DNA of 25,003 nt from a virus: positions 1-25,003 of IMG/VR virus record IMGVR_UViG_3300020185_000245; one strand, 5' to 3'. The notes under the pieces were generated by a model. The model was not told where the DNA came from. It saw only the letters and a program-made list of their open reading frames with translations, and searched no databases. Every line of letters starts with the position of its first letter. The stretch's first letter is position 1. A program made the translations under genes and the position numbers. This document shows, in pieces, positions 710 to 25,003 of the stretch.

Positions 710-1027
710 ATGGCTTCAAGAACACCTTTTGAATGGGGAAACGCTAATTTTGCTTGGAATACAAATCCATTTGGAGCAAGACAAAGTAAAAACCCCTTTA
801 CTTGGGATGATTGTGCTTTAGTTGCAGAAGTATTAAGGGCAGGTAAAGCCTATGGTGAAGTTTTTAAAGATAAAAAGAAAAAGAAAAAGTTTATAAAACT
901 TATATGCCAAATTGAAGGTATAGAATATAAAGAAACTAAAGAGATAAAAAAAAGGCAAATACGTATTACGGACGTAGCCCTGGTTGCTAAAGAAGTATTG
1001 GGGGTTGATATTAAAATTGATATGTGA
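710..1027 (+). CDS. Hypothetical protein, small and lysine-rich
   Basis: I do not recognise this 105-residue protein. Its N-terminus is rich in aromatics and asparagine (FEWGNANFAWNTNPF near residues 7-21, then a second NPFTWDD near 28-34). A very basic stretch KDKKKKKKFIK lies near residues 53-63, and the C-terminal half looks like a small alpha/beta fold. No signal peptide or membrane segment is visible. It starts 17 bases after phoH behind a copy of the recurring AT-rich element. Its TGA stop overlaps the ATG of the next gene (TGATG at 1025-1029), so the two are probably translationally coupled. Its place ahead of fibre and neck genes fits a minor virion or head-associated protein, but that is a guess. 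Confidence 0.7.
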   Translation: MASRTPFEWGNANFAWNTNPFGARQSKNPFTWDDCALVAEVLRAGKAYGEVFKDKKKKKKFIKLICQIEGIEYKETKEIKKRQIRITDVALVAKEVLGVDIKIDM

Positions 1028-1599
1028 TGTATAAATTATTTACTGATAAAACAGAGCTCTTTGAGTGTAATATAAAACTGGAAGGTGCTTCTTTAAAAAA
1101 TAGTCATGCCCGTCTGCTAGTAGAATCTGATGACTTAAATCTTATGTTTAAGGGTACCATTAGCTCAACAGGTAAATGTCAGATCCCCATTAAAAAATTA
1201 AAAGGTCTTTTAGACGAAAATATTAAGGGTAATATTAAACTTGAAGTAATAGCAGATGATACTTATTTTACCCCATGGGAATCTAAGTTTACTGTAGATA
1301 CTTCACGAAAAATTACTGTAGAAGTTAAATCTCAACAAGACACTGAAGTCTTAACTGAATCAAAACCTGCAGTTTCTGTAAGTAATGTTAAAAATAGCGT
1401 GACTCTTCACGAAAGGGAACATATCATTACCCTACTACGGTTGTTGATCAAAGAAGATATTAATTTAGAAAACCTCTCAATTAAAAAAGATAAACTCAAC
1501 AATCTTGTTGGTACTTACTTACAAGAAAATGAAATTACCTCTAACCAAAAGGAAACAATCATTGAAGGAGTATTAACAGGGTTGTCCAAAATAGGTTAA
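1027..1599 (+). CDS. Hypothetical protein, beta-rich N-terminus and helical C-terminus
   Basis: This is an unrecognised 190-residue protein. I chose the ATG at 1027, which overlaps the upstream TGA, rather than the GTG one codon earlier at 1024. The first ~100 residues alternate hydrophobic and polar positions as in a beta-sandwich, including a segment with ESKFTVDTSRKITVEV. A serine/valine linker follows near residues 105-125. The C-terminal ~65 residues look helical (EREHIITLLRLLIKEDINL and after). The shape of a globular beta domain plus helical tail is compatible with a virion or scaffold-associated protein, but no family can be named. It ends one base before the large fibre gene at 1601 and probably shares its transcript. 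Confidence 0.7.
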   Translation: MYKLFTDKTELFECNIKLEGASLKNSHARLLVESDDLNLMFKGTISSTGKCQIPIKKLKGLLDENIKGNIKLEVIADDTYFTPWESKFTVDTSRKITVEVKSQQDTEVLTESKPAVSVSNVKNSVTLHEREHIITLLRLLIKEDINLENLSIKKDKLNNLVGTYLQENEITSNQKETIIEGVLTGLSKIG

Positions 1600-1600
1600 G

Positions 1601-4600
1601 ATGGCATTACCTGATTTAACAGGGCAAAATATAGAAAATACTTATCAAAGGGTATTACAAACAGACGGTACTATTATATATGATGGTACTGGATCTGTTT
1701 TTCTCCCTGTAAGTGCTTCCTATTCAATAACTGCTTCGTATGCTGAATATGCTGTATCTGCTTCTCATGAGATTGTAAAAGAAGTATCTTCTTCTTATGC
1801 TGATTATGCTAAAGAATCAGGATTAGCAACTTCATCTATATCTGCCTCTTATGCTTTAACAGCTTCTTATGCTTTAAATTCTCCCGATGTATTCCCATAT
1901 ACAGGAAGTGCTATAATTAGTGGTAGTTTAGTAGTTACGGGATCTACAGAAATACAATATTTAACAGCCTCAGGACTTAATTACCCTGCTATTGATGGGG
2001 ATGAAAAACAATTAATTACTACTGATGGGAGTGGTAATTTATTTTTTGATTGGGCCGATAGAACTAATTTAGATGTAAAAAATACTTCTGGAACTACATT
2101 AGCATTAGGAACTCCTGTATATATAAGTGGATTTCAAGGAGCTTCTATATTTCAAATTTCTCCTTCTTCTGCTTCGATATCTAGCTCAATGCCCGCAGTT
2201 GGAGTTTTAAGCCAAGAATTAGCTCCTAATGAACAAGGTCATGCTACCATATTAGGAGCTTTAAGAGGATATAACACTTCTTTATACTCAGTAAATGACA
2301 GTTTATATGTTGGAGAAGGAATTTTAACAAAAGACCGCCCTACAGGCTCAGCTTTAATCCAAAAAATAGCTAGAGTAGGTAATTCTCAAAATAATGGAGA
2401 AATTACTATTATAGGTGCTGGCAGAAGTAATGACGTACCCAACCTCCCCCCAGGTTATGCTTGGGTAGGGGGTAGCACTTGGAATGCGGTTGCAACTCCT
2501 ACATCATCATTTAATGAAGACCCATTCCCATATACAGGAAGTGCTGTAATTAGTGGTAGCTTAGATGTGACAGGAAATACCGCCTTCAATTCAGGTCTAG
2601 AAGTACATAGTGGGAATTCTTCGATGTATTTTGAAAGCGGCAGTAGTATAGCATCAGATGATGGTAAAATTTATATAGAATCCACAGGGGGCCCCTCTAA
2701 TATTTCTTTAAATAGAACAGACGGAGCACAATTATCCTTATTAGCAGGGGGAAGCTTTGCGGGGTTTTACTACCCTAGCAATAAAAAATTTGGTATACAA
2801 CCTATGTCTAATCCTGCTACGGCAACTAATTTCCCTTCGGCAACTAGTTTAGTATTAGATGGTGTCGGTAATGTGGGTATAGGAACCTCATCCCCAAGTA
2901 CTAATTTAGATGTAATAGGTAACACTAGAATAACAGGGAACATCACATCTTTAAGCTATATTACTGCCTCCACATACTACGGCGACGGCTCCAATCTCAC
3001 AGGTATTGAAACGGACCCATTCCCATATACAGGAAGTGCTATAATTTCGGGTTCATTTACAGTTACAGGCTCAATCATATCAACAGATACAGTAACAGCA
3101 GTAACGGGTTCATTCTCACACCTTAAAGGTAATTCACCTATAACGATTCAAGATCCTGTTACTTTCCAACATGCTCAAGGTTTAGATGTATTAGGAAATG
3201 CTACCATTCACAGTATAAATGAAGTTGAACTTCAAACTATATCGAAGGATATCAGCTATACTTCTAGCATAAATGTAACTGAAATCCCATCTTCAGTTAA
3301 TGGGATGATTATAGATTATAGATTAACAAACTTAAATAGTGGTTCTAGAGTAGGTACCTTTATGTATGCACACGATGGTACTGAGTTAAGTTATAACGAT
3401 TTGACTATACCTGGGGGTGGAATTGGTAGTGATCCTATATTAAGTGCTACATTAACAGGTAGTATAGTTAGTTTAGATATAGAAAATGCCGCTGGATTCA
3501 ACTTTACAGGATATGCTAAAAAGTTTAATAAATTAGGAGCCCCTATTCCTATAGCTAATCCTAATGCACCTATTCCTTTGTTAGATACTTATAATAACGC
3601 AGAAGCAGCTTTTTCATTAAGAAAATTATCTACCCTCCACACTGGAAGTGCTATTCGAGTTAGAGAAGATGGTTTTGATACCGAAATTGATATAGGATTT
3701 GACATAAATAATAATTTAGATACTAGCACTCTTTCAGCACATTGTGGTTCTAACAATGGATATGTAGTTACTTGGTATGACCAAAGCGGAAACAATAATG
3801 ATGCAACCCAAACTGCAGCAGCAAACCAACCCCAAATAGTTTCAAATGGTAACGTAATTTTTGAAGGGGGAAACCCTGCAATCCAAGGTACAAATTCATC
3901 AAAATTGTTACTCAACTCTACTATAGAACTCTCATCAGAATTTTCACACTTTACTTTATGTACAACTGTTGGTACTGATAACCCTTGGGGGGGTGATGCT
4001 AGTGGAGCAGAACAAACAACTTGGGTTTATTTTTCTAATATAAATACTAATTGGAGATTAATAAATTCTACAGGATTATATAGTTATAGTATCCCTAATA
4101 TCCCCGGAGGTACTTTAGTTTTACAAAATCATATTAGAAGTACTAATAATTCTACTCCTTTGTACTTAAATGGAGATATTACAAATTCACCAACAGTAAA
4201 TGGTACCTTTTATGTTAAAGTTATAATGGGATCAAATTGGTTTAATTATGCTGGTAGAGCTCAAGAAATTATTTTTTATAAATCTGACCAATCTTCTAAC
4301 CGTGAAGGTATTGAAACTAACATTAATACCCATTATAATATCTACGACACCGGCCTCCTAGCAGAATACTCCGGAGCAGCAGCAGCATACTCAGTACGTC
4401 AACTTACTACAGCATACACAGGCTCCGCTCTCCGCATCCGCGAAGACGGTACAAATACCGAAACAGATATCGGATTTGATTCGAATGGAGATTTAGATAC
4501 TGCTTCTATTGCTTCACATTGTGGCGCTAATAATGGTTTAGTTGTTACGTGGTATGATCAAAGCGGAAATGGAAATAATGCGACACAAAGTACTGTTGGA

Positions 4601-9912: not shown

Positions 9913-10167
9913 ATGAGTGAACAAATTAAGTTATCCCAAGAAGAATTAGATTCTATCAAACAGTTGCAAAACCAACAACAGGCTCTTATTGGCCAATTTG
10001 GTCAAATAGAATACCAAGTACAGTTGTTGGAGTTACAAAAAGACCAATTAGTGGAAACTATGGGTGAGTTGCAAAAAGAAGAAACAAAAACTGGACAAGA
10101 ACTAACACAAAAATATGGAAACGGAACGGTTGATTTAGAATCGGGAACGTTTACAAAAACGGAATAA
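9913..10167 (+). CDS. Small coiled-coil protein upstream of sheath
   Basis: This is an 84-residue protein. I chose the ATG at 9913 (MSEQIKLSQEEL) rather than an upstream TTG at 9862, because the upstream stretch is intergenic in character and contains two copies of the recurring AT-rich element. Residues 4-65 are a continuous charged helix with heptad-like leucine, isoleucine and glutamine spacing, so a coiled coil is likely. The end (KYGNGTVDLESGTFTKTE) looks like a small beta hairpin. Similar short coiled-coil proteins occur near sheath genes in related phages, to my recollection, without known function. A tail-assembly or sheath-associated role is only inferred. Confidence 0.75.
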   Translation: MSEQIKLSQEELDSIKQLQNQQQALIGQFGQIEYQVQLLELQKDQLVETMGELQKEETKTGQELTQKYGNGTVDLESGTFTKTE

Positions 10168-10168
10168 A

Positions 10169-10180
10169 ATATTTTAACAA
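10169..10180 (+). promoter_or_regulatory. Weak variant of recurring element before sheath gene
   Basis: ATATTTTAACAA ends nine bases before the sheath ATG at 10190. It matches the recurring element with a shortened centre. The sheath is a highly expressed structural gene, so an own signal is plausible, but the match is weak. Confidence 0.3.
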
Positions 10181-10189
10181 TATATCAAA

Positions 10190-12232
10190 ATGGCAGAACA
10201 AATAGTATCACCTGGAGTATTTACAAGAGAAAACGACCAGTCATTCATAACCCAACAACCTGTAGAAGTAGGAGCCGCAATCGTAGGCCCTGCTGTTAAA
10301 GGTCCTGTTGAAATCCCTACTTTAGTCACTTCCTATAGTGAATATGTGAATAAATTTGGTTCTACTTTTGTAAGTGGAGGTAGAGTTTATTCTTACCTAA
10401 CAGGCAATTCAGCATATAATTACTTCCAAAATGGTGGTAATACTTTATTAGTAACTCGAGTTACAACAGGTTCATTTACACCTGCAACAGCTTCTATTGC
10501 TAATGGAACTACTGTTGGTGATATAAGCACAATAAATTCACTTTCATCATCACTTTCAGGAATTGGTAACAATTATGATGCCGCCACTTTAACTGCTATT
10601 ACAGCCTCTTCTACAGATGGATCAGGTATTAATGCTACTTTTAATTTTACCTTTGCAGGTGGAGACGGTGCTTCTGGAGTTACAGCAGCTACTGCTGCAG
10701 CAGGAGGAAGTGGTTATGTTATTGGGGATACAATTACGTTTACCGCTGCTGAATTGAATAATGCTATAGGATCCGGTACAGGTACTGGAAACTTAGTATT
10801 AACTTTAGTTGCAGCCGATATTGCTGATAATCCTCCAAGTACTGCTGCTTTTAAATTAAAAACTATCTCTGAAGGTGCTATTATGAATAGTAATGGTACT
10901 TTAGGAAGTGACGGTCAATTATCAACAGGCACTGATGATAATGTTAGATGGGAAATCTCATTTGCAGATACAGGATCAGGCACATTTAATCTTTTGATTA
11001 GACAAGGTAATGATTTAACTAATGATAAAATTGTATTAGAAACATACGCAGGTATATCACTCGATCCTTTCCAAGACAATTACATTGCTAAAGTAATAGG
11101 TGATCAAAAGCAAGCCTTAGTTTCAGATGCTGATGGAAACAAGTATCTCGAAATAACAGGATCATATGCTAATAAGAGTAATTATGTTTATGTAGATGAA
11201 GTATCATCTCCAACTCCTAATTTCTTCAATAATATAGGCAATGCTGCTAGTGATGCATTTAAAGAATCCATCCCAGTTGTAGCAAGTGGCTCGTTTGCAG
11301 GTGCTATAGGAGCACTTACAGGATCAGAAGCAGCCTTATTTAATGAAAAAATTGATACTAATACTCAAGGCTTAAGAGCCGAAGATTATAGTGATGTGTT
11401 TAGTTTGTTAACTAACAACGATGAATATCAATACAACGTAATCACTGCTCCTGGATTGATCCACGGTGTAGCAGCACATACTGGCGTATTAAACACATTA
11501 ATATCTAATACCCAAAACAGAGGTGATGCAATTGCTGTAGTTGATCTTTCAAAATATGGATCTACTATAACTGGCACTACTAACCAAACTTCAGGCATTA
11601 ACTCTAGCTATGCAGCTTCATACTGGCCTTGGTGTCAAATTATTAATCCTGATACAGGAAAACAAAATTGGGTACCAGCTTCAACATTAATTCCAGGTGT
11701 TTTCGCCTTTACAGATAATGCAGCTGAACCATGGTTCGCACCTGCAGGTATTAATAGAGGTGGATTAGATACAGTAATCAGACCAGAAAGAAAATTACAA
11801 AGATCTCAACGAGATACTTTATATGAAAGTAATGTTAACCCAATTGCTAATTTCCCTGCAACAGGAACAGTAGTATTTGGTCAAAAGACACTACAAAAGA
11901 AAGCATCAGCACTTGATCGTGTAAATGTTAGAAGGTTATTAATTGCACTTAAGAGCTACATTGGACAAGTTGCTAACAACTTAGTATTTGAACAAAATAC
12001 AGCAGCAACAAGAAACAATTTCTTAGCCCAAGTAAACCCATACATGGAAAGTGTACAACAAAGACAAGGTGTTTACGCCTTTAAGGTAGTAATGGACGCT
12101 TCAAACAACACTCCTGATGTAATTGATAGAAATCAGATGGTAGGCCAGATTTTCTTACAGCCAACTAGAACAGCAGAATTCATAATTCTCGATTTCAACG
12201 TATTGCCAACAGGAGCTGAGTTCCCAGCATAA
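10190..12232 (+). CDS. Contractile tail sheath protein, T4 gp18-like
   Basis: This 680-residue protein is the tail sheath subunit that surrounds the tube and contracts during infection. The N-terminus (MAEQIVSPGVFTRENDQS, then AAIVGPAVKGPVEIPTLVTS) is the standard sheath opening. The C-terminal ~200 residues hold the conserved sheath core: PWFAPAGINRGGL, the LQRSQRDTLYESNVNPI segment, a VRRLLIALKSYI helix, NNLVFEQNTAATRNNF, and a final strand near AEFIILDFNV. Its length is close to T4 gp18 (659). A glycine-rich insertion with GGDGASG and GGSGYVIGDTITF at roughly residues 155-185 is probably a surface domain. The tube gene follows immediately. Confidence 0.93.
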   Translation: MAEQIVSPGVFTRENDQSFITQQPVEVGAAIVGPAVKGPVEIPTLVTSYSEYVNKFGSTFVSGGRVYSYLTGNSAYNYFQNGGNTLLVTRVTTGSFTPATASIANGTTVGDISTINSLSSSLSGIGNNYDAATLTAITASSTDGSGINATFNFTFAGGDGASGVTAATAAAGGSGYVIGDTITFTAAELNNAIGSGTGTGNLVLTLVAADIADNPPSTAAFKLKTISEGAIMNSNGTLGSDGQLSTGTDDNVRWEISFADTGSGTFNLLIRQGNDLTNDKIVLETYAGISLDPFQDNYIAKVIGDQKQALVSDADGNKYLEITGSYANKSNYVYVDEVSSPTPNFFNNIGNAASDAFKESIPVVASGSFAGAIGALTGSEAALFNEKIDTNTQGLRAEDYSDVFSLLTNNDEYQYNVITAPGLIHGVAAHTGVLNTLISNTQNRGDAIAVVDLSKYGSTITGTTNQTSGINSSYAASYWPWCQIINPDTGKQNWVPASTLIPGVFAFTDNAAEPWFAPAGINRGGLDTVIRPERKLQRSQRDTLYESNVNPIANFPATGTVVFGQKTLQKKASALDRVNVRRLLIALKSYIGQVANNLVFEQNTAATRNNFLAQVNPYMESVQQRQGVYAFKVVMDASNNTPDVIDRNQMVGQIFLQPTRTAEFIILDFNVLPTGAEFPA

Positions 12233-13900: not shown

Positions 13901-16696
13901 ATGGGTTTAGAACAATCAGCTAAAGAAGCAAGAGCAGCAGCTAATGAACTAGAAGGTTCTTTTGGTGAATATAGAGATGCCCTGCGAGCTAGTAATGAAG
14001 CACTAGGTAACAAAATAAATAATATAAAAGAAGCTAGCTCTCTATATGGTCAATTAGATGGTCAATTACGAAAACTTCAAGATCAAGAAGAAGGAATAAA
14101 CCGCTTAAATGACCAACAACTTGAACAAATTAGAAGTAAAGCTAATTCACAAGTTGCAGAAATTCAAAGACGTGGTGAAGCCTTAACAGTAAGTAAAAAG
14201 GAACTTCTTTTAGATAAAAATAAAAAGGAATTACATGCGGGTAATGTTAGATTAAGACTTAACCAATTAGTTGCTACTAAACAAATTACTAAAGCCGAAG
14301 CTGAATTAATTGAAGCCACAAAACAAAACTTTAAAATAGAAGAAGAAGCTTTAGGTTTAATAGAAAAAGAAATTAGCCTTAGGGAAAGATCTAATAGAGC
14401 TTTAGGGGTTAGTGGAAAAATTTTAAAAGGAATTGAAAATAGCTTAGGGGATTTTGCTAAAGCTTTTAAATTAGATCAAGTTGCTAAAGATATGGAAAAA
14501 GCAGCTGATGAAGTTGCTAGATTAAACCAAAATTTTGGTAGAACTAGAGTTCTTATGGCTGGAATCAAATCAGCTGGTAAGGGTTTAGTAGAAACTATAA
14601 CAGATCCTACAGTTATTATAGCGGGTATTGCTAAATCATATAGTGAATATGAAAAAAGTGCAAGAGAAATAAGACAAGAAACAGGGGTATCAGCTGTAAC
14701 CTTAAGTAAAATGACCAATTCAGCTGGTACCTTTAATGATAGTATGGTATCATCTATTGATGCCGCTAAAACTATTGGTTCTCTTACAAAAGAAACCGGT
14801 ATGAATGTTGCCGCAACTTTTAGCTCTGATACTATTACAGCTGCTACTGAACTCACTACATTACTTGGGTTAGGTGCTGAAGAAACAGCTAACATGGCTT
14901 TAAGAGCTGAGGTATTTGGGGATGATTTAGGAAAAGCAGGAACACAAGCTGAGGGTATAGTACAAGATTTTGCAAACCAGGGTAAAGGAGCTGTAAACCT
15001 AAAGGCAGTTATGTCAGATGCAGGTAAAGCTTCAAATGCTTTATCTATGAGTATAAAAGGAGGTCAAGAGGGTCTTATAAAAGCAGCTGCGGGAGCTGCT
15101 GCCTTAGGTATTAATCTTGCTAAAGCAGAAGGAATTGCTGATAGTTTACTTAATTTCCAATCTTCTATTGAAGCTGAAATGGAAGCTGAACTCTTAACAG
15201 GTAAACAAATCAATTTAGAAAAAGCCCGAATGGCTGCTTTAAATAATGATATGGTTACTTTGACAGAAGAAATAGCCAATAATACCGAAATTCAAGCAGC
15301 ATTTTCCTCAGGAAATAGAATCCAACAAGAAGCTATTGCTAAATCTTTAGGAATGTCTAAAGATGATGTTGCTAAGATGATTTTGTTAAGTGAAAAAAAT
15401 AAAAACTTAACAGAGCAACAACGAGCAGATGCAGCAGGTATTACTATTGAAGAAGCAAAACGATTAGGAACCCAAGAACAAATTTCAAAAGCAATTGAAA
15501 AAATGACAGCAGCCCTTGCTCCGGCTCTTGGTATTTTTGCATCTCTTCTTGATAATAGTCTTGTACTTTATACTACTATGGCTGCTGTAGGAGCTATAAT
15601 ATCAGTAAAGATATTAGGAAGTGCTATTTCATTGGGTAAAGAGATGAAAAGTACTCTTAGCACTACTAAAGATATAGCAAAAAATCTAGCAAAAGGATTT
15701 GCAGGGGGCAAAGAAGGAGGGGGGATGTTAGGGGGTATAAAAGGAGCAGCAAAAGGACTAATGGGGGGAGAAGGAGATAAAGTAAAGTCCGCAGCTAATA
15801 GTACAAAAGGTATTAAAGGGGATCAAGGTAAAGGAGTAAAAGGATTTCTTAAAGGATTGGGGGATGGTTTAGCCTCTATAGGCAAACAAGCTGCAAATGT
15901 AATAAAAGGTGGTTTAGCATTAGGTATTGTAGGTGTTATTTTAGGGGGCTCATTTGCTTTAGCTATGAAAATGGTTGAAAATGTAGACCCCGTACAAATG
16001 ATAGCATTTTCTGCAGCTTTAGCTATATTTGGTACTACTGCTGCTTTAATTGGAAAATTAGGCTCTCAAGTAATGCAAGGTGCAGCTGCTTTATTAGTAA
16101 TGGGGTTGGCTTTAGTTCCTGCTGCATTTGCTTTTAGTTTATTAGAAGGATTAGACACAGATGCTCTTATAGCATTTTCAATAGCATTACCTTTATTATC
16201 ATTAGCAGCAGCTGGATTAGGATTAATTGCTCCTTTTATAATAGCAGGAGCAGCAGCAATTGGTGTATTAGGATTAGCTATGCTACCTTTAGCAGCATCT
16301 TTCCAAATGTTAAATGGGGTTGATTCTACAGGAGTAGTAACTAGTTTAGCTACATTTGCTGGGTTAGCCCCTGGGTTAATGTTAGTTGCTGCCTCTTTAT
16401 TTTCAATTGCAGGAGGATTAGGAGCAATGGCTATAGCAGGTATAGCTGCTCTCCCTGTAATGGCCGGTTTAATGGGTTTAGGGACAGTTGCTACTGGTAT
16501 ATCTTCAATTTTAGGAGGAGATGAAGAAGGAGGTGAAGAAGCTGCCCCTAAAAATAGTGATAATGCTATTTTAGCAGAAAAATTAGATCAAATGAATGCT
16601 ACATTAAATGCTATTTTAACTAAAGAAGGCACGGTTATGTTAGACAGCACAAAAGTAGGAACCGCTTTATCAGTAGGATCTTATAAATTACAATAA
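13901..16696 (+). CDS. Tail tape measure protein
   Basis: This 931-residue protein has the classic tape-measure design. Residues 1-210 are highly charged helices with coiled-coil character; residues ~210-540 are alanine-rich helical repeats of glycine, alanine and threonine; hydrophobic segments occur at ~535-580, ~670-690 and almost continuously at ~700-870 (for example LGIVGVILGGSFALAMKM and AALLVMGLALVPAAFAFSLL). A glycine/lysine-rich linker (~600-660) lies before them. The C-terminus has KLDQMNATLNAIL and MLDSTKVGTALSVGSYKLQ, an ending typical of phage tape measures. It would set tail length and be released through the tube at infection. With the usual ~0.15 nm per residue, the tail would be near 140 nm, an inference. 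It directly follows the chaperone pair, as expected. Confidence 0.92.
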   Translation: MGLEQSAKEARAAANELEGSFGEYRDALRASNEALGNKINNIKEASSLYGQLDGQLRKLQDQEEGINRLNDQQLEQIRSKANSQVAEIQRRGEALTVSKKELLLDKNKKELHAGNVRLRLNQLVATKQITKAEAELIEATKQNFKIEEEALGLIEKEISLRERSNRALGVSGKILKGIENSLGDFAKAFKLDQVAKDMEKAADEVARLNQNFGRTRVLMAGIKSAGKGLVETITDPTVIIAGIAKSYSEYEKSAREIRQETGVSAVTLSKMTNSAGTFNDSMVSSIDAAKTIGSLTKETGMNVAATFSSDTITAATELTTLLGLGAEETANMALRAEVFGDDLGKAGTQAEGIVQDFANQGKGAVNLKAVMSDAGKASNALSMSIKGGQEGLIKAAAGAAALGINLAKAEGIADSLLNFQSSIEAEMEAELLTGKQINLEKARMAALNNDMVTLTEEIANNTEIQAAFSSGNRIQQEAIAKSLGMSKDDVAKMILLSEKNKNLTEQQRADAAGITIEEAKRLGTQEQISKAIEKMTAALAPALGIFASLLDNSLVLYTTMAAVGAIISVKILGSAISLGKEMKSTLSTTKDIAKNLAKGFAGGKEGGGMLGGIKGAAKGLMGGEGDKVKSAANSTKGIKGDQGKGVKGFLKGLGDGLASIGKQAANVIKGGLALGIVGVILGGSFALAMKMVENVDPVQMIAFSAALAIFGTTAALIGKLGSQVMQGAAALLVMGLALVPAAFAFSLLEGLDTDALIAFSIALPLLSLAAAGLGLIAPFIIAGAAAIGVLGLAMLPLAASFQMLNGVDSTGVVTSLATFAGLAPGLMLVAASLFSIAGGLGAMAIAGIAALPVMAGLMGLGTVATGISSILGGDEEGGEEAAPKNSDNAILAEKLDQMNATLNAILTKEGTVMLDSTKVGTALSVGSYKLQ

Positions 16697-16953: not shown

Positions 16954-18774
16954 ATGCCTTTAGTAGACCTCAAAACTAATCTAAAATCCCTAAAATATGG
17001 GAATGACAGGTTAGGTAATGGAAGTAGTAGAGAACCCTTTATTACCGAACCTATACCTGAAGGGGATACCCCTGGGGCTTCTACAGACTTTCTTCTTAGA
17101 CAAGGAGCTATTAGAAATAGTGGTAAAGACGCTTCAAGATTAACACAACTTCTCTTTTCAACTACTAGAGGTCTATTATTCACCACAGGTAACCAACTTC
17201 TTTCTAGAACATCAGTAAAAACAGAAGCTACATTAGGTCCTGCATATGCAGGGGGTGCTATTAATCAAGGAGTTTATCTACCTACTTCTACAATAGCCCA
17301 ATCATTAGCTGGTTTTTCAGGTACCCATTTAAATTTATTAGGGGTTAATCCTGCTTCACCTACAGCAGGAGTTGTTGAAGGAGATTTATTCCCTGATGGA
17401 GGTCTTATTAGATATAGTAATGCTGTAAAACTAAACGAAAGTATTAATGAAAATCGATTAGTAGAATTACTTGATAGTAAAATTTTAGGAGGTAGACCTT
17501 CTGTAGTTTCTCTGGTTTCTCAAGATCCTTTAGAAATACTGTCATATGGGGGTGGTCCTGGATCAGTATTAGGTATAGGTAAAACTAAAATAAAAAGAAC
17601 AACTAACACTACAGGTATTAATGAATATGGTAATCCTGAAGGGGGATATAAAAAATTAGCTCAAACAAAAGCTAGTAATGCTAAAACATCTTTAGATTTA
17701 AGTAATTTATTAGGAGTTTCTAATGACTACTTTACATATTCTGAAATAAGCAATATACTAATCCCAGACCCTAATCCTGAAATTTTAGGTATAAACCCTG
17801 AAGATGGATCTCAATTAAAAAGATTTGGCCCCCAAGATGATAATAAGACATTAAGCACATTAGAAGATAGTGGAAGTCTTGTTAAAATCTCTAAAGAAAA
17901 TTCCCAAGTTAAAGTAGCTAATGCTAAAACAACCTTTAACCAAAACAACCCTTCGGGATCTTTAGATGCTATTACATATGGTGTTGCTAGTGATAATAAA
18001 ACAGTAACTTCTAAGACAGCATATGTTGGACCCATATCAGGTTCGTATTCTACTATTAATAATCAAAGAACTTATAATCTTAATCCTAATTTTAAACGTA
18101 ATAGGTATGGCAGTTTGGGTGCTCCTACTAACGGGAATAAACAGTACACTTATACGGGAGATAAATTTAATGCTACTAATACTAGTAAATTAAATACTTC
18201 TACTGAAAATAAAGCTCCTGATAATGATCAATTATTTAAATTTTATTTAAATTTAGTTGACCCTCAATCCCCTGGAACAAATAATTATTTATATTGGCAA
18301 GCATATGTTGATAATTTTAATGACCAAGTAGGAGCTGAATACGATTCATTTACTTACACAGGCAGAGGCTACCCTTCATATCGTTATAAAGGATTTACTA
18401 GATCCATTAGTTTAGACTTTACTATTGTAGCCACAACCCCAGATCAAATGATTCCTATTTACACTAAATTAAATGAATTAATTCAAAATTTAGCTCCAAA
18501 CTATAGTAGTAACGGTTATATACGTGGTAATTTTGTTAAATTAACATTTGGAGATTATCTTAACAACGTTCCGGGGATTATTAATGGTTTTTCAATAAAC
18601 CCAATATTTGAAGCTGGTTTTGATATAGGAGGAACAGAAGAAGAAAAAGCAAAAAATATTACATCTGGGAAACAATTACCAAAAGCAATAAAAATAAGTG
18701 GATTTAACTTTACCCCAATTGCTAGCAATGATAATAGATTAGTAAGTAGTGATAGTAAATTTATTTCATACTAA
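16954..18774 (+). CDS. Baseplate protein, possible tube initiator (gp48/gp54-like)
   Basis: This 606-residue protein has a long polar N-terminal half of low similarity to anything I recognise, then a compact C-terminal domain from about residue 425. That domain has NYLYWQAYVDNFNDQVGAEYD, TYTGRGYPSYRYKGFTRSIS, a LDFTIVATTPDQMIPIYTKL helix, YIRGNFVKLTFGDYLNNVPG and a closing INPIFEAGFDIG strand. This strand order resembles tube-like domains of tail-tube initiators, and in T4 genes 48 and 54 follow the tape measure gene 29. The specific homology is inferred rather than shown. The stop overlaps the LysM-like gene as TAATG, suggesting that the two proteins are made together. Confidence 0.58.
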   Translation: MPLVDLKTNLKSLKYGNDRLGNGSSREPFITEPIPEGDTPGASTDFLLRQGAIRNSGKDASRLTQLLFSTTRGLLFTTGNQLLSRTSVKTEATLGPAYAGGAINQGVYLPTSTIAQSLAGFSGTHLNLLGVNPASPTAGVVEGDLFPDGGLIRYSNAVKLNESINENRLVELLDSKILGGRPSVVSLVSQDPLEILSYGGGPGSVLGIGKTKIKRTTNTTGINEYGNPEGGYKKLAQTKASNAKTSLDLSNLLGVSNDYFTYSEISNILIPDPNPEILGINPEDGSQLKRFGPQDDNKTLSTLEDSGSLVKISKENSQVKVANAKTTFNQNNPSGSLDAITYGVASDNKTVTSKTAYVGPISGSYSTINNQRTYNLNPNFKRNRYGSLGAPTNGNKQYTYTGDKFNATNTSKLNTSTENKAPDNDQLFKFYLNLVDPQSPGTNNYLYWQAYVDNFNDQVGAEYDSFTYTGRGYPSYRYKGFTRSISLDFTIVATTPDQMIPIYTKLNELIQNLAPNYSSNGYIRGNFVKLTFGDYLNNVPGIINGFSINPIFEAGFDIGGTEEEKAKNITSGKQLPKAIKISGFNFTPIASNDNRLVSSDSKFISY

Positions 18775-19073
18775 TGGATAGATATAACAATATACCAATA
18801 CTTCGTACTCCTGCTGGAAAGAGATATAGGGCTAATACCAAATATCCCGAAATTCCTTTTAATAATAATGACATATACATTATAGCGGAACAAGGAGATA
18901 GGTTTGATTCATTAGCCTTTCAATATTATGGAGACACAAGTTTATGGTGGATAATTCCTGCAGCAAATCCCCGTTTTAAACCAAATAGTATTTATCCTGA
19001 AAGGGGTCACCAAATAAGAATTCCATCTAATGTGTCAGGCATCATAGAAGAGTATAATATTTTAAATCAATAA
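18774..19073 (+). CDS. Baseplate wedge protein with LysM-like domain (gp53-like)
   Basis: This 99-residue protein carries a LysM-like fold. The core is DIYIIAEQGDRFDSLAFQYYG (32-52, consensus for the first LysM strand and helix) followed by DTSLWWIIPAANPRFKPNSI and GHQIRIP (the second helix and last strand). The N-terminus LRTPAGKRYRANTKYPEIPF resembles that of T4 gp53-type wedge proteins. T4 gp53 is longer (~196 residues), so this is a minimal version. In phage baseplates such domains act as structural clamps rather than peptidoglycan binders. It is coupled to the upstream gene by TAATG and lies three bases before the hub-like gene. Confidence 0.75.
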   Translation: MDRYNNIPILRTPAGKRYRANTKYPEIPFNNNDIYIIAEQGDRFDSLAFQYYGDTSLWWIIPAANPRFKPNSIYPERGHQIRIPSNVSGIIEEYNILNQ

Positions 19074-19076: not shown

Positions 19077-21476
19077 ATGGGAAAAATCGTTGGAGAAGTT
19101 TTTGAAGAATATGTTCAAAAACAAATTACTGTTAGACAAAATAAATTAGGTAATACAACATATGATAATGATCTTCTTACATATACTACAAGTAAAGATA
19201 GTTGGCTAAGGCTATCCTCAGGAGTAAATGTAGACCAAGAAAAACTTGCTAAACTTCCTAATATCCCTTTATCTGAATTCCCGGAAGGAAATTCTTTAGC
19301 TTCAAGCTATGTTTTGTTTGGGGGTGCAAACAATATTAATAAATCTTCTAAGCCTAAAGGAGGCCTTATAAGTACTTACACTGATTCAATATTAGCTAAT
19401 GCTTCATATGGATTCGATTCAACTGCGGATTATGGTTTAGTTCCTTTACCTGGAGTAACTTCTTTTAATATTAAACCTAAAAATAATGGCTCTATAACAG
19501 AAGGTGAAATTAAAATTAAATGTTATAATATCCAACAATTTGACCATATTGAATCTCTTTACCTAAGAATAGGATATACTTTATTACTAGAATGGGGACA
19601 TACAATTTATTATAGAGATGAAAATAATCTAGAAACTCAAATTACAGATAATACTGATAGTGTATTGCGAAAATTCATCACTGGAGATAAAGGAACTGAC
19701 ACTGACCCTCAATCCCACATTTTAAAAGAAATAGCAAAAGCTCGTAAAAAATCATCAGGCAATTACGATGCTGCAATAGGCCGAGTAACAAATTTTGATT
19801 GGAGTGTATCCCCAACAGGAGAATATGAAATTTCCATCTCAGTTATTTCTCCTGGAGCTATAATTGAATCTTTATCTGTCTCAGTTGTTCTCCCTAATAA
19901 AAGAAAGGAAGAAGGAGATGAAGAAGGAGAAGACAACACAGGAATAGTAGATCCTATAGAATCTACAACTATAGGAGGAATTTTATCAAGTTTTAAAAAA
20001 GTATTAAGTCAAGATTTTGGATTTTTGGGATCAATCCGTAAAGCAAAAACTGATTTAGGAGCTTTATCTGATATTTCTGATGAATCCGAAAATGGCAATA
20101 ATTTTGAATATTTCTATGTACCCAAATCTCTTACAAATGCTAATATTGCTACTGCTGCTTCTGTAGGCACAGGAGCTTTTAATGATCCAAAAAACCAAAC
20201 TAGCATACCCCCTAGAGAAATAGTTGCTATAGAACCTAAAAGCTTTGATTCAAAATCCGAAGATTCTGATTCTGATAGAGTGTTCTATGTAAAATTTGGA
20301 GCTTTATTAAGAATAATTCAAAATTTTCTTTTATTATATAATACTAATGAAATTAATAATCCTCCTATAATATCTATAGATTGGGATTATAATGATAATA
20401 AATGTTTTATACCTTTAACAGATTTATTTTCCTCAAATCCTTCAATTTGTGCTATCCCGTCTCGATTTAAATCATCATTTGAACGGAAAGGGTTCTTATA
20501 TGGTACTAATACTAAGAAAATAAATTTTACATCTCTTAATAACGTATTAGGAAAGGATTGGTTTGGAAAATCTGACTATGAATATAATTTTATGCATATC
20601 TATTTAGGTATAGATAATCTTTATTCTCTCCTTAGAAACACCATAAACAGTGAAGGTGAACTTGCTTTAATAGATTTTCTAACAGCTATATGTACAGGAA
20701 TTAATTCCTCTTTATCTAACCAAACAGAATTTACCCCTTTTGTAGATACTGACACTAACATACTCCACATAGTCAATAAAAGAAATTCAGACCCTATACT
20801 TGAGAAACCCTCAATTCCTTCTAAATTTCAAATTGGATACTTACACAATAATGGTGTTGAAGGTTTAAATGGTATTAAAATTGGTAGTTTTGTAAAAAAC
20901 GTATCGATAAAATCTACTCTTCCCCCTAACTTTGCAACTCAAATAGCCATAGGAGCACAAGCAAATGATACACAAACAGATTCTAATGCAACTCCCTTTT
21001 CTAATTGGAATATAGGATATACTGACAGAATTTTTCTTGAAAAACAATCCCCAAAAAGTAAAACAGTTGAAGAAGAAAATAAAGAAGCTGAAATAAACGA
21101 AGCATTTGCCAATACTGAATATAATGCTAATGAAGCCGCTTACCTTTATTCTAATTTTATATACGATGAAGATTTTACCAAATTATCTACAGACATAAAT
21201 AAATATTTTAAAAATGATAGTGCTGAAAAAATTCAATCTACACCTGGTTTTACAGCCCCTATTTTAATACCTATTTCTTTATCCCTTACATTAGATGGAC
21301 TTTCAGGAATGAAAATATTCCAAAAATATACTATTACTGATGATTTCCTCCCTCAAAGTTATAGAGATAATATTGAATTTATTATTAAAGGTATTAATCA
21401 CACAATTGATGATAATGGGTGGGTAACTAATATTGAGGGACAGTTTATGCCTAAAGCAAAAAGAAACAATTCTTAA
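19077..21476 (+). CDS. Large baseplate hub-like protein
   Basis: This 799-residue protein is probably a baseplate hub or central spike-complex component. The most telling segment is at ~117-180: ADYGLVPLPGVTSFNIKPKN, EGEIKIKCYNIQQFDHIESL and YLRIGYTLLLEWGHTIYY, a pattern seen in hub proteins of related metagenomic phages, as I recall. The C-terminal ~65 residues (SLTLDGLSGMKIFQKYTITD, IEFIIKGINHTIDDNGWVTN) resemble the closing beta domain of gp27/gpD-type hubs. An acidic linker (KRKEEGDEEGEDN) lies near residue 280. I see no lysozyme or peptidase motif. The protein follows the LysM gene and precedes a hypothetical baseplate gene; a non-hub structural role remains possible. Confidence 0.55.
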   Translation: MGKIVGEVFEEYVQKQITVRQNKLGNTTYDNDLLTYTTSKDSWLRLSSGVNVDQEKLAKLPNIPLSEFPEGNSLASSYVLFGGANNINKSSKPKGGLISTYTDSILANASYGFDSTADYGLVPLPGVTSFNIKPKNNGSITEGEIKIKCYNIQQFDHIESLYLRIGYTLLLEWGHTIYYRDENNLETQITDNTDSVLRKFITGDKGTDTDPQSHILKEIAKARKKSSGNYDAAIGRVTNFDWSVSPTGEYEISISVISPGAIIESLSVSVVLPNKRKEEGDEEGEDNTGIVDPIESTTIGGILSSFKKVLSQDFGFLGSIRKAKTDLGALSDISDESENGNNFEYFYVPKSLTNANIATAASVGTGAFNDPKNQTSIPPREIVAIEPKSFDSKSEDSDSDRVFYVKFGALLRIIQNFLLLYNTNEINNPPIISIDWDYNDNKCFIPLTDLFSSNPSICAIPSRFKSSFERKGFLYGTNTKKINFTSLNNVLGKDWFGKSDYEYNFMHIYLGIDNLYSLLRNTINSEGELALIDFLTAICTGINSSLSNQTEFTPFVDTDTNILHIVNKRNSDPILEKPSIPSKFQIGYLHNNGVEGLNGIKIGSFVKNVSIKSTLPPNFATQIAIGAQANDTQTDSNATPFSNWNIGYTDRIFLEKQSPKSKTVEEENKEAEINEAFANTEYNANEAAYLYSNFIYDEDFTKLSTDINKYFKNDSAEKIQSTPGFTAPILIPISLSLTLDGLSGMKIFQKYTITDDFLPQSYRDNIEFIIKGINHTIDDNGWVTNIEGQFMPKAKRNNS

Positions 21477-21491: not shown

Positions 21492-22091
21492 ATGCCATAT
21501 ATTCCCAAAAGTAGAATACAACCCAATTTATATACTGCTGGGAAAGACTATGTAATTAAAAACACCCTAGAACCCTACATCGGATATTATTATAGAATTT
21601 ATACGGGCCAAATCTTTACAGGTAAAAACCCTGATGACAAACCTAATTTCCTCTTAATCCCTCCACCTAATCAACCCATTCAGGTAAATCAAACCCAAGT
21701 TTTCATTAAAGATAACCTTGCAAATGAAAATTATAAGGCTTTAAAAGGAATTACTGGAAATAATTTAAGAAATAACCCTCAATTATTCTATACCCAACCT
21801 ACTGAATCTGATTACCAATTAGGTGAGTTTAGAAGATACTTTTGCAAAAAGAAAAACGAATTTATATACATTGAGATATCAAAATCAGACTATGATAATC
21901 TAGTTCAAAAATCCCCAACAATTAATTTTCAAATGTGGACTCCTTTCAATATTCCTTGGACATTGGTTGGAGAAGAGAAACAAGTATATTATATTAATCG
22001 TAATATAGTCTTTTTAAAAGAAAAAAATGAAAAATTCCACGGTTTGGGAAAATATCTTCAAGAAAAGTATTTAAGGTACTATAAGCCTTGA
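21492..22091 (+). CDS. Conserved-looking hypothetical protein, probable baseplate or tail component
   Basis: I do not recognise this 199-residue protein with certainty. It begins MPYIPKSRIQPNLYTAGKDY and contains YIGYYYRIYTGQIFTGKNPD (about 29-48), followed by NFLLIPPPN. I recall similar N-terminal patterns in proteins of related metagenomic phages, always near baseplate or fibre genes. The C-terminal part has a FRRYFCKKKNEFIYIEISKS segment and ends in a basic helix. No signal peptide or membrane helix is visible. Position between a hub-like protein and the giant fibre makes a baseplate or fibre-attachment role plausible. Confidence 0.7.
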   Translation: MPYIPKSRIQPNLYTAGKDYVIKNTLEPYIGYYYRIYTGQIFTGKNPDDKPNFLLIPPPNQPIQVNQTQVFIKDNLANENYKALKGITGNNLRNNPQLFYTQPTESDYQLGEFRRYFCKKKNEFIYIEISKSDYDNLVQKSPTINFQMWTPFNIPWTLVGEEKQVYYINRNIVFLKEKNEKFHGLGKYLQEKYLRYYKP

Positions 22092-22118: not shown

Positions 22119-25003
22119 ATGGCACAAAAATTTATTATAGACAGAAACTTAGGAGCATTTTGTATTCCTTACAAGCTATCAAGTACCTCTACGGTTCCTG
22201 TTTCTGGAAGAATAAGTTTATATAACAGCCTAAAAGTAGCAAACGTTAGTAGAATTGATATAAACAAATCAGATCTATCTCGGAACGACTTATCGAATTA
22301 TTTAAATACTAGCAGTAAAGGCACTATAACACTGTATAGTAAAGAGTTTCCTACTAGCTATGCAATATTTTCTTATACATCTATAACAGAAAATTCTAAC
22401 TACGTAACTTTTAACCTTACACCAGGGGCAATTGCAAAATCTGAAAACATCCCTTTTTCATTAGAAGAAGAAGTGTGTTTGATGTTGGATTATAATGATG
22501 GAACTGGTGGACCTGGTGGAACATCTGGAACATCTGGTACTTCAGGTGATGGTACTTCAGGTACTTCTGGTACTAGCGGGCAAGATGGTACTGATGGTTC
22601 TGATGGTACCTCTGGTACTAGTGGTACTGATGGTTCTGATGGTACCTCTGGTACTAGTGGTACTGATGGTATTGATGGTTCAAGTGGCACATCTGGTACT
22701 AGTGGTACAGGAGGTGATTCAGGTTCAAGCGGTTCATCAGGCTCATCAGGTACTTCAGGTTCATCAGGTTCAAGTGGTACTAGTGGATCTTCAGGCTCAA
22801 GCGGTACCTCAGGTTCATCAGGCTCATCGGGTACTTCAGGTTCATCAGGTTCAAGTGGTACTAGTGGCTCATCAGGTTCTTCAGGTACTTCAGGTTCATC
22901 AGGATCTTCAGGTACATCAGGATCAAGTGGTTCATCAGGCTCATCAGGTACTTCAGGTTCATCAGGATCTTCAGGTACCAGTGGATCTTCAGGCTCAAGC
23001 GGTACCTCAGGCTCATCAGGTACTTCAGGATCATCAGGTACTAGTGGCTCAAGCGGTACTTCAGGTTCATCAGGTACTTCAGGTTCATCAGGTACTTCAG
23101 GATCTTCAGGTACTAGTGGCTCGTCAGGCTCATCAGGTACTAGCGGTTCATCAGGTACTAGCGGTTCCTCAGGTACTTCAGGCTCATCAGGAACATCAGG
23201 TTCAAGTGGTACCTCAGGATCATCAGGTACTAGTGGTTCATCAGGTACTAGCGGTTCCTCAGGTACTTCAGGCTCATCAGGAACATCAGGTTCAAGTGGT
23301 ACCTCAGGATCATCAGGTACTAGTGGTTCATCAGGTTCAAGCGGTACTTCAGGTTCATCAGGTACTAGCGGTTCATCAGGTACTAGCGGTTCCTCAGGTA
23401 CTAGCGGTTCCTCAGGTACCAGTGGCTCAAGCGGTACTTCAGGATCATCAGGTACTTCAGGATCTTCAGGTACTAGTGGCTCGTCAGGCTCATCAGGTAC
23501 TAGCGGTTCATCAGGTACTAGCGGTTCCTCAGGTACTTCAGGCTCATCAGGAACATCAGGTTCAAGTGGTACCTCAGGATCATCAGGTACTAGTGGTTCA
23601 TCAGGTTCAAGCGGTACTTCAGGTTCATCAGGTACTAGCGGTTCCTCAGGTACTAGCGGTTCCTCAGGTACTAGCGGTTCCTCAGGTACCAGTGGCTCAA
23701 GCGGTACTTCAGGATCATCAGGCACTTCAGGATCTTCAGGTACTAGTGGCTCGTCAGGTTCATCAGGTACTAGTGGTTCATCAGGTACTAGCGGTTCATC
23801 AGGTACTAGTGGTTCATCAGGTACTAGTGGTTCATCAGGTTCAAGCGGTACTTCAGGTTCATCAGGTACTTCAGGATCTTCAGGTACTAGTGGCTCGTCA
23901 GGCTCATCAGGTACTAGCGGTTCATCAGGTACTAGCGGTTCATCAGGTACTAGTGGTTCATCAGGTACTAGTGGTTCATCAGGTTCAAGCGGTACTTCAG
24001 GTTCATCAGGTACTTCAGGATCTTCAGGTACTAGTGGCTCGTCAGGCACCTCAGGTTCATCAGGTACTAGCGGTTCCTCAGGTACTAGTGGTTCATCCGG
24101 TTCAAGCGGTACTTCAGGTTCATCAGGTACTTCAGGATCTTCAGGTACTAGTGGCTCGTCAGGCACCTCAGGTTCATCAGGTACAAGTGGTTCTAGTGGT
24201 ACTTCAGGATCTAGTGGTACTTCAGGCCCACCAGGAAAACCAGGTAATAATGGTGCTTCAGGTACTTCAGGATCATCAGGTACTTCAGGATCAAGTGGTA
24301 CCTCAGGTTCATCAGGTACTAGTGGTTCATCAGGTACTAGTGGTTCATCAGGTACTAGTGGTTCATCAGGTACTAGTGGTTCTAGTGGTACTTCAGGATC
24401 TAGTGGTACTTCAGGCCCACCAGGAAAACCAGGTAATAATGGTGCTTCAGGTACTTCAGGATCATCAGGTACTTCAGGATCAAGTGGTACCTCAGGTTCA
24501 TCAGGTACTAGTGGTTCATCAGGTACTAGTGGTTCATCAGGTACTAGTGGTTCATCAGGTTCAAGCGGTACTTCAGGTTCATCAGGTACTTCAGGATCTT
24601 CAGGTACTAGTGGCTCGTCAGGCACCTCAGGTTCATCAGGTACAAGTGGTTCTAGTGGTACTTCAGGATCTAGTGGTACTTCAGGCCCACCAGGAAAACC
24701 AGGTAATAATGGTGCTTCAGGTACTTCAGGATCATCAGGTACTTCAGGTTCATCAGGTACTAGTGGTTCATCAGGTACTAGTGGTTCATCAGGTACTAGC
24801 GGTTCATCAGGTACTAGCGGTTCATCAGGTACTAGCGGTTCATCAGGTACCTCAGGATCATCAGGTACTAGTGGCTCAAGCGGTACTTCAGGTTCATCAG
24901 GTACTTCAGGATCTTCAGGTACTAGTGGCTCGTCAGGCTCATCAGGTACTAGCGGTTCATCAGGTACTAGTGGTTCATCAGGTACTAGTGGTTCATCAGG
25001 TAC
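22119..25003 (+). CDS. Giant collagen-like tail fibre, 3' end beyond the window
   Basis: This reading frame is open from the ATG at 22119 to the window edge, 961 full codons plus two bases. Residues 1-127 form a globular beta-rich domain (MAQKFIIDRNLGAFCIPYKL, KGTITLYSKEF, YVTFNLTPG) that likely attaches to the baseplate. From codon 128 onward the protein is Gly-X-Y for at least 834 residues, with X and Y mostly Ser and Thr. Early triplets include aspartate (GTDGSDGTS), there is one phase break (GTSGDGTS at 22536-22559), and three GPPGKPGNNGA islands occur at 24225, 24414 and 24684. Such regions form rod-like trimeric shafts in phage fibres. The receptor-binding C-terminus lies outside. A long proline/glutamate open frame on the opposite strand is a shadow of this repeat. 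Confidence 0.9.
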   Translation, partial: MAQKFIIDRNLGAFCIPYKLSSTSTVPVSGRISLYNSLKVANVSRIDINKSDLSRNDLSNYLNTSSKGTITLYSKEFPTSYAIFSYTSITENSNYVTFNLTPGAIAKSENIPFSLEEEVCLMLDYNDGTGGPGGTSGTSGTSGDGTSGTSGTSGQDGTDGSDGTSGTSGTDGSDGTSGTSGTDGIDGSSGTSGTSGTGGDSGSSGSSGSSGTSGSSGSSGTSGSSGSSGTSGSSGSSGTSGSSGSSGTSGSSGSSGTSGSSGSSGTSGSSGSSGSSGTSGSSGSSGTSGSSGSSGTSGSSGTSGSSGTSGSSGTSGSSGTSGSSGTSGSSGTSGSSGSSGTSGSSGTSGSSGTSGSSGTSGSSGTSGSSGTSGSSGTSGSSGTSGSSGTSGSSGTSGSSGTSGSSGSSGTSGSSGTSGSSGTSGSSGTSGSSGTSGSSGTSGSSGTSGSSGTSGSSGSSGTSGSSGTSGSSGTSGSSGTSGSSGTSGSSGTSGSSGSSGTSGSSGTSGSSGTSGSSGTSGSSGTSGSSGTSGSSGTSGSSGTSGSSGSSGTSGSSGTSGSSGTSGSSGTSGSSGSSGTSGSSGTSGSSGTSGSSGSSGTSGSSGTSGSSGTSGSSGTSGSSGSSGTSGSSGTSGSSGTSGSSGTSGSSGTSGSSGTSGSSGSSGTSGSSGTSGSSGTSGSSGTSGSSGTSGSSGTSGSSGTSGPPGKPGNNGASGTSGSSGTSGSSGTSGSSGTSGSSGTSGSSGTSGSSGTSGSSGTSGSSGTSGPPGKPGNNGASGTSGSSGTSGSSGTSGSSGTSGSSGTSGSSGTSGSSGSSGTSGSSGTSGSSGTSGSSGTSGSSGTSGSSGTSGSSGTSGPPGKPGNNGASGTSGSSGTSGSSGTSGSSGTSGSSGTSGSSGTSGSSGTSGSSGTSGSSGTSGSSGTSGSSGTSGSSGTSGSSGSSGTSGSSGTSGSSGTSGSSG
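22500..25003 (+). repeat. Collagen-like 9-bp coding repeat array
   Basis: The array is built of 9-bp units coding Gly-Thr-Ser or Gly-Ser-Ser, using all six serine codons. Perfect higher-order copies sit inside it: 23085-23246 equals 23445-23606 (162 bp, offset 360); 24186-24371 equals 24375-24560 (186 bp, near-perfect 189-bp tandem duplication); and 24099-24289 equals 24558-24748 (191 bp, offset 459). It runs off the window. Unit number may be wrong if assembled from short reads. Confidence 0.95.

Follow-up and report, generated by a model that had tools for sequence, protein, structure and literature searches.

The window analysed here is the whole of IMG/VR virus record IMGVR_UViG_3300020185_000245, a 25,003 bp contig with a myovirus tail module. 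The open reading frame at positions 22119–25001 (+ strand) is open through the final base of the record and encodes a fibre protein with a very long, almost proline-free Gly-X-Y shaft composed mostly of Gly, Ser and Thr. We lean, with modest confidence, towards the view that three such chains form a very long tail fibre and that a phage enzyme of the TibC/Aah type O-glycosylates its serines, with the sugars replacing proline as stiffener. The fibre reading itself is well supported; the glycosylation of the shaft and the presence of the enzyme in the window's own virus are what we infer.

Residues 1–125 of the protein are non-repetitive and the translation displays Gly-X-Y from residue 128 to the contig end. 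The initial annotation, made from the DNA letters alone, had described at least 834 residues of Gly-X-Y with one early phase break, and this holds: residues 128–961 comprise 834 residues, and the single break, where one residue is missing, is at positions 143–145. Amino acid positions 145–961 display 273 Gly in unbroken phase, i.e. 272 full triplets or 817 residues. The X position is occupied by Ser in 134 and Thr in 123 of the 272 triplets (94% Ser/Thr), and the Y position by Ser in 255 (94%). GSS (132) and GTS (119) account for 251 of the 272 triplets. The unbroken run has nine Pro (1.1% of residues), all of them within three copies of a GPPGKPGNNGAS block at residues 703–714, 766–777 and 856–867, and 11 charged residues in the 272 triplets. 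The scarcity of proline and the predominance of Ser and Thr at X and Y had been correctly noted. The features of the fibre region are:

22119..22493, + strand: fibre N-terminal domain (amino acids 1–125), probably an attachment domain by the baseplate; conserved in relatives
22494..22550, + strand: linker (amino acids 126–144) in which Gly-X-Y begins and the only phase break falls, from the translation
22551..25003, + strand: unbroken Gly-X-Y shaft (amino acids 145–961), mostly GTS/GSS, cut by the contig end; from the translation and PF01391
24225..24260, 24414–24449 and 24684–24719, + strand: the three GPPGKPGNNGAS blocks, which hold the sole prolines of the unbroken run
22490..25003, − strand: antisense open frame with PDEPLV repeats, a by-product of repeat codon use

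The antisense frame (837 amino acids) was rejected as a gene. It mirrors the array, and similar mirror frames are found in locus L020.

The shaft matches the collagen triple-helix repeat family PF01391 at 369.5 bits (gathering cut-off 27.2), and its periodicity is no chance effect. The family is characterized by Pro-rich X and Y positions or by stabilizing charge. The shaft has neither, and we therefore speak of a Gly-X-Y shaft and do not class it with the classical collagens. The protein also has PHROG tail-fibre matches, which like the PF01391 match are largely driven by composition, and a sequence search of the PDB with the shaft returned almost only collagens, as expected from composition alone. 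A left-handed beta-helix of period 6 was considered and dropped; the spacing of Thr is irregular (at least two triplets) and only the Gly phase is strict.

From residue 202 onward, 760 codons display 208 synonymous departures from the commonest codons and 21 amino acid departures from G-[S/T]-S, all 21 inside the three GPPGKPGNNGAS copies. Duplication of repeats adds to this pattern, yet not one Gly has been lost over 817 residues. The 208 synonymous versus 21 amino acid departures thus point to probable selection on the protein, beyond DNA slippage alone. Exact repeats in the array are up to 191 bp long, and at this size the copy number of the array in a metagenome assembly is unreliable. The window contig and its six closest relatives (L009–L014, with N-domain identities of 86–98%) all break off within the array. 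The 961 amino acids are therefore an assembled length, i.e. a minimum or an unreliable figure, and not the gene length. The same repeats and contig ends could be taken to mean that the array is largely a product of assembly or DNA slippage and that the gene really encodes a short fibre or a low-complexity linker without structure. We consider this very improbable. Intact relatives of 3116 and 2890 amino acids are each encoded by a gene that is identical in two contigs, with a 3117-codon open frame the same in four, and neither slippage nor a free linker predicts full retention of Gly where synonymous sites vary.

These two complete relative types are 58% identical to the window in the N-domain. 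Five runs of 8 or more triplets make up the 806 triplets of the 3116 amino acid protein, with four homologous inserts of ~80 amino acids between the runs, and the 2890 amino acid protein has similar inserts. The tips of the two proteins are 45% identical where aligned, and one has an extra piece of ~70 amino acids; in the window the contig end cuts the gene ahead of any tip. The 2890 amino acid gene is that of L044 and L045. In L043 (IMGVR_UViG_3300007344_000263) codon 233 is an in-frame stop in a shaft gene that is intact in L044/L045; this is either a broken copy or a sequencing error.

The N-domain is 98–58% identical in 15 of the 16 loci compared and 32% identical in the sixteenth, L046. 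The L046 copy (9971–10366) lies between two GTSG stretches, thus the N-domain appears to serve also as an in-shaft domain, and such domains are probably modular. The AlphaFold model of the N-domain (pLDDT 75, pTM 0.70) displays a mixed beta fold with no match among PDB folds at E ≤ 0.001. The N-domain, the tip and one insert have no Pfam match, N-domain and insert profiles found nothing in the PDB by sequence up to E 1, and tblastn of the N-domain, one insert and the tip against 50,697 phage records (E up to 0.01) found nothing either. At the DNA level the shaft matched 13 phage records, two of which were covered over 80%. The tip is predicted to be beta-rich from a two-sequence alignment (pLDDT 69; the other four models gave 28–36). 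Fold matches of the pLDDT 69 model are weak and are not relied on: the tailspike 6e1r at E 9e-4, and galectins and T4 gp9 at E 2e-3 to 1e-2. The N-domain comes directly after the baseplate genes, and judged by composition the shaft is rod-like. A tail fibre, with the N-terminus proximal to the baseplate and a distal tip that possibly binds the receptor, is the natural reading of this arrangement.

The rise of a triple helix is ~0.286 nm per residue, and phage tail length is ~0.15 nm per residue of the tape measure protein. The 817 residues of the window's shaft would then extend ~234 nm, and the tail, from the 931 amino acid tape measure, ~140 nm. This bears out the earlier estimate of a shaft above 230 nm and longer than the ~140 nm tail, and the tape measure is homologous to the annotated one of Flavobacterium phage immuto. 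At the same rise the complete 3116 amino acid relative with its 806 triplets would reach ~690 nm.

Shafts of this type are widespread. A scan of viral contigs with a degenerate GTSGSSG pattern gave at least 120 loci, which is a sample and not a total count. Among the 120 listed, 115 display Ser/Thr-rich Gly-X-Y of at least 12 triplets, with medians of 135 triplets and 0 proline. In nine of them a run of 273 or more triplets is uninterrupted, the longest reaching 843. The window's length and composition thus appear to be no freak of one contig and are probably those of a common class of environmental phages. The initial annotation had called the shaft extremely long. This stands in comparison with characterized phage collagens (322 amino acids for the longest E. 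coli prophage collagen domain in PMC3368898), but not among environmental phages, as the nine listed loci attest. A search of open-licence PMC found no paper describing proline-free Ser/Thr phage shafts, and none of the open-licence PMC papers with GTSGSSG-type strings is about phage fibres, judged by title. Among genome contigs (L242–L360), 64 of the 119 listed pattern loci have Ser/Thr-rich Gly-X-Y of at least 12 triplets; these, which may derive from prophages or from cell-surface proteins, include Burkholderia lata (L268) and two loci with over 300 triplets (L262, L288).

The two variable positions are used differently. In 23,007 triplets from 125 open reading frames of the 120 listed loci, Thr is found 11,867 times in X and 1,292 times in Y, Asp 74 times in X versus 939 in Y, and Asn likewise prefers Y. 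This asymmetry means that the two positions are not equivalent. It bears on the possibility that the shaft resembles polyglycine II, with parallel polyproline-II strands packed into a bundle that may have more than three chains. Such bundles have Gly at every third residue and tolerate a lack of proline, which fits the shaft. The X/Y asymmetry fits a triple helix at least as well, and the present data do not tell the two apart; we hold the bundle to be quite unlikely.

A frame of 3488 codons in the 735-kb uncultured phage LR756501 contains 833 Gly-X-Y triplets and is 93% Ser/Thr and 0.1% Pro. In LR756501 (385000–430000, L361) and in G066 (102348–116874), Pro-rich GPQ-type frames are found near Ser/Thr GTSG-type frames in the same fibre cluster. 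It appears that one phage uses both shaft chemistries.

A candidate for what stabilizes the proline-free shaft is O-glycosylation by a TibC-like enzyme that is encoded nearby in relatives. Downstream of the complete 3116 amino acid shaft gene are open reading frames of 240, 136, 87 and 725 amino acids, which look fibre-like on inspection, and after them, at a distance of 3.7 kb from the shaft gene, a glycosyltransferase of 767 amino acids is encoded. This protein has an N-terminal GT4 domain (PF00534) and a C-terminal part that matches TIGR04414, the "autotransporter strand-loop-strand O-heptosyltransferase" family of TibC/Aah (257.7 bits, cut-off 200). By sequence its PDB matches are TibC structures 4rap/4rb4 at E about 8e-42 (best 7.6e-42), with lipopolysaccharide (LPS) heptosyltransferases at E 0.2 or worse. 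The enzyme alignment comprises 26 phage sequences of 36 enzyme loci, near-duplicates left out. The Asp equivalent to TibC D110, which is mutated in 4rb4 (D110A; PMC4358343), is present in all 25 phage sequences that cover the site. TibC hyperglycosylates autotransporters, and the sites in the mapped peptide described in PMC4358343 are Ser and not Thr; together with the dominance of Ser in the shaft, this is counted for the glycosylation reading. Across phages the TIGR04414 domain is in frames of about 300 to 1460 amino acids, i.e. with varied partners. In Microcystis phage Mel-JY01 the TIGR04414 frame (PP395634, 4750–8430) is annotated as methyltransferase FkbM. Among the open-licence PMC papers listed on phage, heptosyltransferase, tail fiber and TibC, TibC is found only in a Laribacter genome paper.

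Five short contigs of the window's clade (L365–L369) begin in the enzyme or at most 1.1 kb before it and then run into the genes that make up the replication region of the full-length relative; their proteins are mostly 83–100% identical. They were selected by the enzyme itself and are no measure of its frequency in the clade. L365 and L369 come from the same metagenomes (3300020165 and 3300034407) as the shaft contigs L009 and L012. These contigs may be right-hand halves of genomes broken at the array. This suggests a reason for the breaks: assembly would fail at the array, so that tail genes end up on one contig and enzyme and replication genes on another.

Association of the enzyme with Ser/Thr shafts was analysed in several sets. 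Glycosyltransferase matches within 10 kb of a shaft number 20 of 43 against 10.5 expected, and at the contig level 12 of 19 against 6.2 (p = 0.004). This was computed for 34 of 40 contigs (without G007, G008, G009, G011, G019 and G030), with near-duplicate G014 and matches below the cut-off dropped. Such enrichment fails to separate the shaft from fibre regions in general, and PF00534 enzymes are also in immuto and Mel-JY01, thus the presence of a generic GT4/GT2 match is weak evidence and TIGR04414 was used instead. Among 18 shaft contigs picked for GT4/GT2 matches (without G042 and the near-duplicates G009 and G014), 16 match the 767 amino acid protein at E < 1e-60.

A fairer comparison rests on 43 contigs (20 kb or longer) that were found by the insert domain, blind to any enzyme. 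Shaft-bearing contigs have at least 50, and shaftless contigs fewer than 20, Ser/Thr triplets in the locus with 6 kb flanks. TIGR04414 is above its cut-off in 16 of 26 shaft contigs and in none of the 17 without a shaft (Fisher p = 2e-5). After dereplication by clustering of similar loci the counts are 13 of 19 and 0 of 10 (p = 4e-4). As shaft contigs are longer (median 59.8 versus 37.3 kb), clusters with a contig of at least 40 kb were taken separately, and give 11 of 14 and 0 of 7 (p = 0.001). The set leaves out the window's relatives L047–L055 and the shaft-bearing L056 and L115; with the last two counted as enzyme-negative, p is 6e-5 for contigs, 0.001 dereplicated and 0.004 at 40 kb or more. 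TIGR04414 was above the cut-off in none of 14 control bacterial and archaeal genomes (E. coli rings below).

Of 50 contigs that were chosen for a shaft and are 40 kb or longer, 23 exceed the TIGR04414 cut-off and one falls just short of it. This set is without duplicates L135, L151 and L159 and without L228, L238 and L239, and five of its contigs have no more than 20 Ser/Thr triplets in the examined locus. From the enzyme-selected side, 11 of 36 loci have a Ser/Thr shaft, and many of the rest have little or no sequence ahead of the enzyme. Where 5 kb or more is available upstream, 8 of 14 viruses (grouped by eye) have a shaft, one of them 13 kb away. A set selected by the tail sheath, 80 of 591 matches and mostly short contigs, is too small for a baseline. 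The strict shaft pattern was found in 1 of 17 sheath-selected contigs of at least 20 kb versus 4 of 12 enzyme-selected ones, and it missed known shafts (L375; G049). One of the seven sheath contigs tested for the enzyme was positive, i.e. G049, in which a Ser/Thr-rich Gly-X-Y frame of 446 triplets with interruptions (no run longer than 23) lies 5.6 kb from the enzyme.

A tblastn search of the 50,697 phage records with the enzyme domain (E up to 1e-10) found four records from three distinct phages. In Microcystis phage Mel-JY01 (PP395634), whose record gives Microcystis elabens as host, a Ser/Thr shaft frame of 1016 codons, open at the start of the record, lies 1.7 kb from the domain. The annotated Mel-JY01 coding sequence WWT39287 (L488:739–2298, minus) is antisense to this shaft frame at 2–3049 (+), and the mirror open frame seems to have misled the annotation. 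Phage LR756501 has a TibC-like domain (tblastn) and giant Ser/Thr shafts in one genome. Immuto displays no shaft pattern and no TibC-like enzyme, with a weak match to the GT4 part only (E 2e-8).

Several observations weigh against glycosylation of the shaft. No enzyme gene lies within the window, which is cut off ahead of the expected place. Of the 26 enzymes, 8, including those of the window's clade, are without the four iron-finger cysteines and 18 keep them; two of the eight (L370 and L371) are on contigs without a detected shaft. The association tests lack a random-contig baseline and correct for relatedness only in part. No TIGR04414 match above the cut-off is found in 27 of the 50 shaft contigs (contigs being fragments), and 6 of the 14 enzyme-selected viruses with enough upstream sequence show no shaft. 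G062, G063, G067 and G068 (L479–L485) have the enzyme with no Ser/Thr shaft in the 20–40 kb examined, and none by the strict pattern over the whole contig; the substrate of such TibC-like enzymes may be something else, or a distant shaft. The 636-kb phage LR756504 likewise matches the enzyme domain, with no shaft pattern found. Immuto and Mel-JY01 carry other PF00534 enzymes, and glycosyltransferases of phage fibre regions have been read as O-antigen modifiers (PMC7029224). In TibC the four iron-finger cysteines are needed for assembly and activity. The window-clade enzyme, which is without them, is for this reason called TibC-like and not a bacterial autotransporter heptosyltransferase (BAHT), and the loss suggests a changed assembly of the enzyme.

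These points bring in an ordinary long collagen-like fibre, i.e. an unmodified helix maintained by its length, its end domains and cold water, with the enzyme acting on LPS or another protein. We regard this as unlikely. It is favoured by the PF01391 match, by the other PF00534 enzymes of immuto and Mel-JY01, by the glycosyltransferases of pelagimyophage fibre regions, which have been taken for O-antigen modifiers (PMC7029224), and by E. coli prophage collagens that are triple helical without modification (PMC3368898). The latter, as described in that source, are however rich in proline and charge (GPK, GPQ, GER), whereas the window's shaft has ~1% proline and nearly no charge. In addition the enzyme fits the protein-modifying family TIGR04414 far better than LPS heptosyltransferases, and it tracks Ser/Thr shafts. 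Ser/Thr in X with Ser in Y are also among the poorer triple-helix formers by host-guest values.

In the sugar-stabilized fibre that we prefer, the protomer would have the 125 amino acid N-domain near the baseplate, the nearly proline-free Gly-X-Y shaft and a distal beta-rich tip. Gly would lie hidden at the axis of a bundle of polyproline-II type, most probably a triple helix of three chains as in collagen, with Ser in Y and Ser/Thr in X facing outward in nearly every triplet as sugar acceptors. A phage enzyme of the TibC/Aah type, with its gene in the tail-fibre region, would O-glycosylate the shaft serines within infected cells, either while the shaft is being made or once it has folded. TibC transfers heptose, and the phage enzyme may do the same or use another sugar. 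The coat would take the place of proline or hydroxyproline as stabilizer, and would stiffen and shield a shaft otherwise too poor in proline. The data themselves establish the repeat and the constraint on it, the long complete relatives with their inserts and tips, and the enzyme family with its link to Ser/Thr shafts; the trimer, the fold, the shaft as substrate, the identity of the sugar and the stabilization are all proposed. Galactosylated threonine of a worm cuticle collagen is one parallel for stabilization by sugars. Another is glycosylated BclA (PMC8968730). A bolder proposal is that a widespread class of environmental tailed phages has fibres that rank among the longest of any virion, up to ~0.7 micrometre, as proline-free Gly-Ser/Thr-Ser triple helices in which dense O-sugars take over the stiffening and shielding from hydroxyproline, these being laid down by a processive TibC-like phage enzyme, with fibre and enzyme forming a cassette; this is tentative and we rather doubt it in full.

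The remainder of the window is consistent with a fibre gene. The tail module has genes for PhoH, sheath, tube, hub, tape measure, a gp25-like wedge and two more baseplate-region proteins. Immuto is the nearest named phage by sheath, and the gene order from the sheath to the open reading frame at 21492 is shared with it. No RNA families (gathering threshold) or tRNAs were found in the window. The features upstream of the fibre gene include:

10190..12232, + strand: tail sheath (phrog_23, E 2.8e-76; immuto sheath 52% identical over 87%)
13901..16696, + strand: tail tape measure protein of 931 amino acids, homologue of the annotated immuto tape measure (E 2e-74)
18774..19073, + strand: gp25-like baseplate wedge protein (phrog_7145, E 1.4e-10)
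19077..21476, + strand: baseplate-region protein, homologue of immuto gp033, annotated as carboxypeptidase (E 1e-49)
21492..22091, + strand: open reading frame of 199 amino acids directly upstream of the fibre gene (immuto gp032, E 2e-14; Mel-JY01 open reading frame, E 4e-11)

Locus L020 has a 198 amino acid open reading frame at the position equivalent to the last of these. The tail/baseplate synteny with immuto, the PF01391 and PHROG matches and the relatives with a distal tip together uphold the initial annotation's proposal of a long collagen-like fibre shaft.

The E. coli O157:H7 prophage side-tail fibres EPclA and EPclB likewise have a Gly-X-Y shaft between N- and C-terminal domains (PMC3368898). 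The EPcl flanking domains are termed PfN, PCoil and PfC. The longest EPcl collagen domain given there is 322 amino acids, whereas the window has at least 817 and the complete relative 2418. EPcl shafts are rich in Pro, Lys, Glu and Gln in that account, unlike the window's shaft, which is nearly without Pro and charge. Bacillus BclA and bacterial collagen-like proteins, as reviewed in PMC8968730, also have long Gly-X-Y regions, mostly without hydroxyproline, and BclA is glycosylated. The usual bacterial collagen has 19–31% Pro in X and 32–48% Thr in Y according to the same source, whereas the phage shafts have Ser/Thr in X and Ser in Y. The relatives' enzyme resembles the TibC/Aah BAHT of PMC4358343 in scoring above the curated cut-off and in keeping the D110 Asp, and TibC modifies serines of adhesins that need hyperglycosylation. 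It differs in that phage TibC-like forms are often in larger frames, e.g. behind GT4, in the window clade's lack of iron-finger cysteines, and in adjoining a phage fibre gene and not an autotransporter. Phage LR756501 is alike in its giant Ser/Thr shaft and TibC-like domain, but has several shafts in its genome, including a nearby Pro-rich one of GPQ type.

The Gly-X-Y phage fibre is thus already known; a modification system for Ser/Thr shafts would be new, and is unproven. Stabilization of the proline-free shaft is now a testable question with a named isolate record, Microcystis phage Mel-JY01. If the glycosylation reading is true, some fibre-adjacent phage glycosyltransferases that have been read as tools for host LPS, as in PMC7029224, would modify the virion itself. 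This would have a bearing on adsorption reach in dilute water, on protease resistance and on the immune visibility of virions, and may provide a proline-free, sugar-stabilized collagen for materials.

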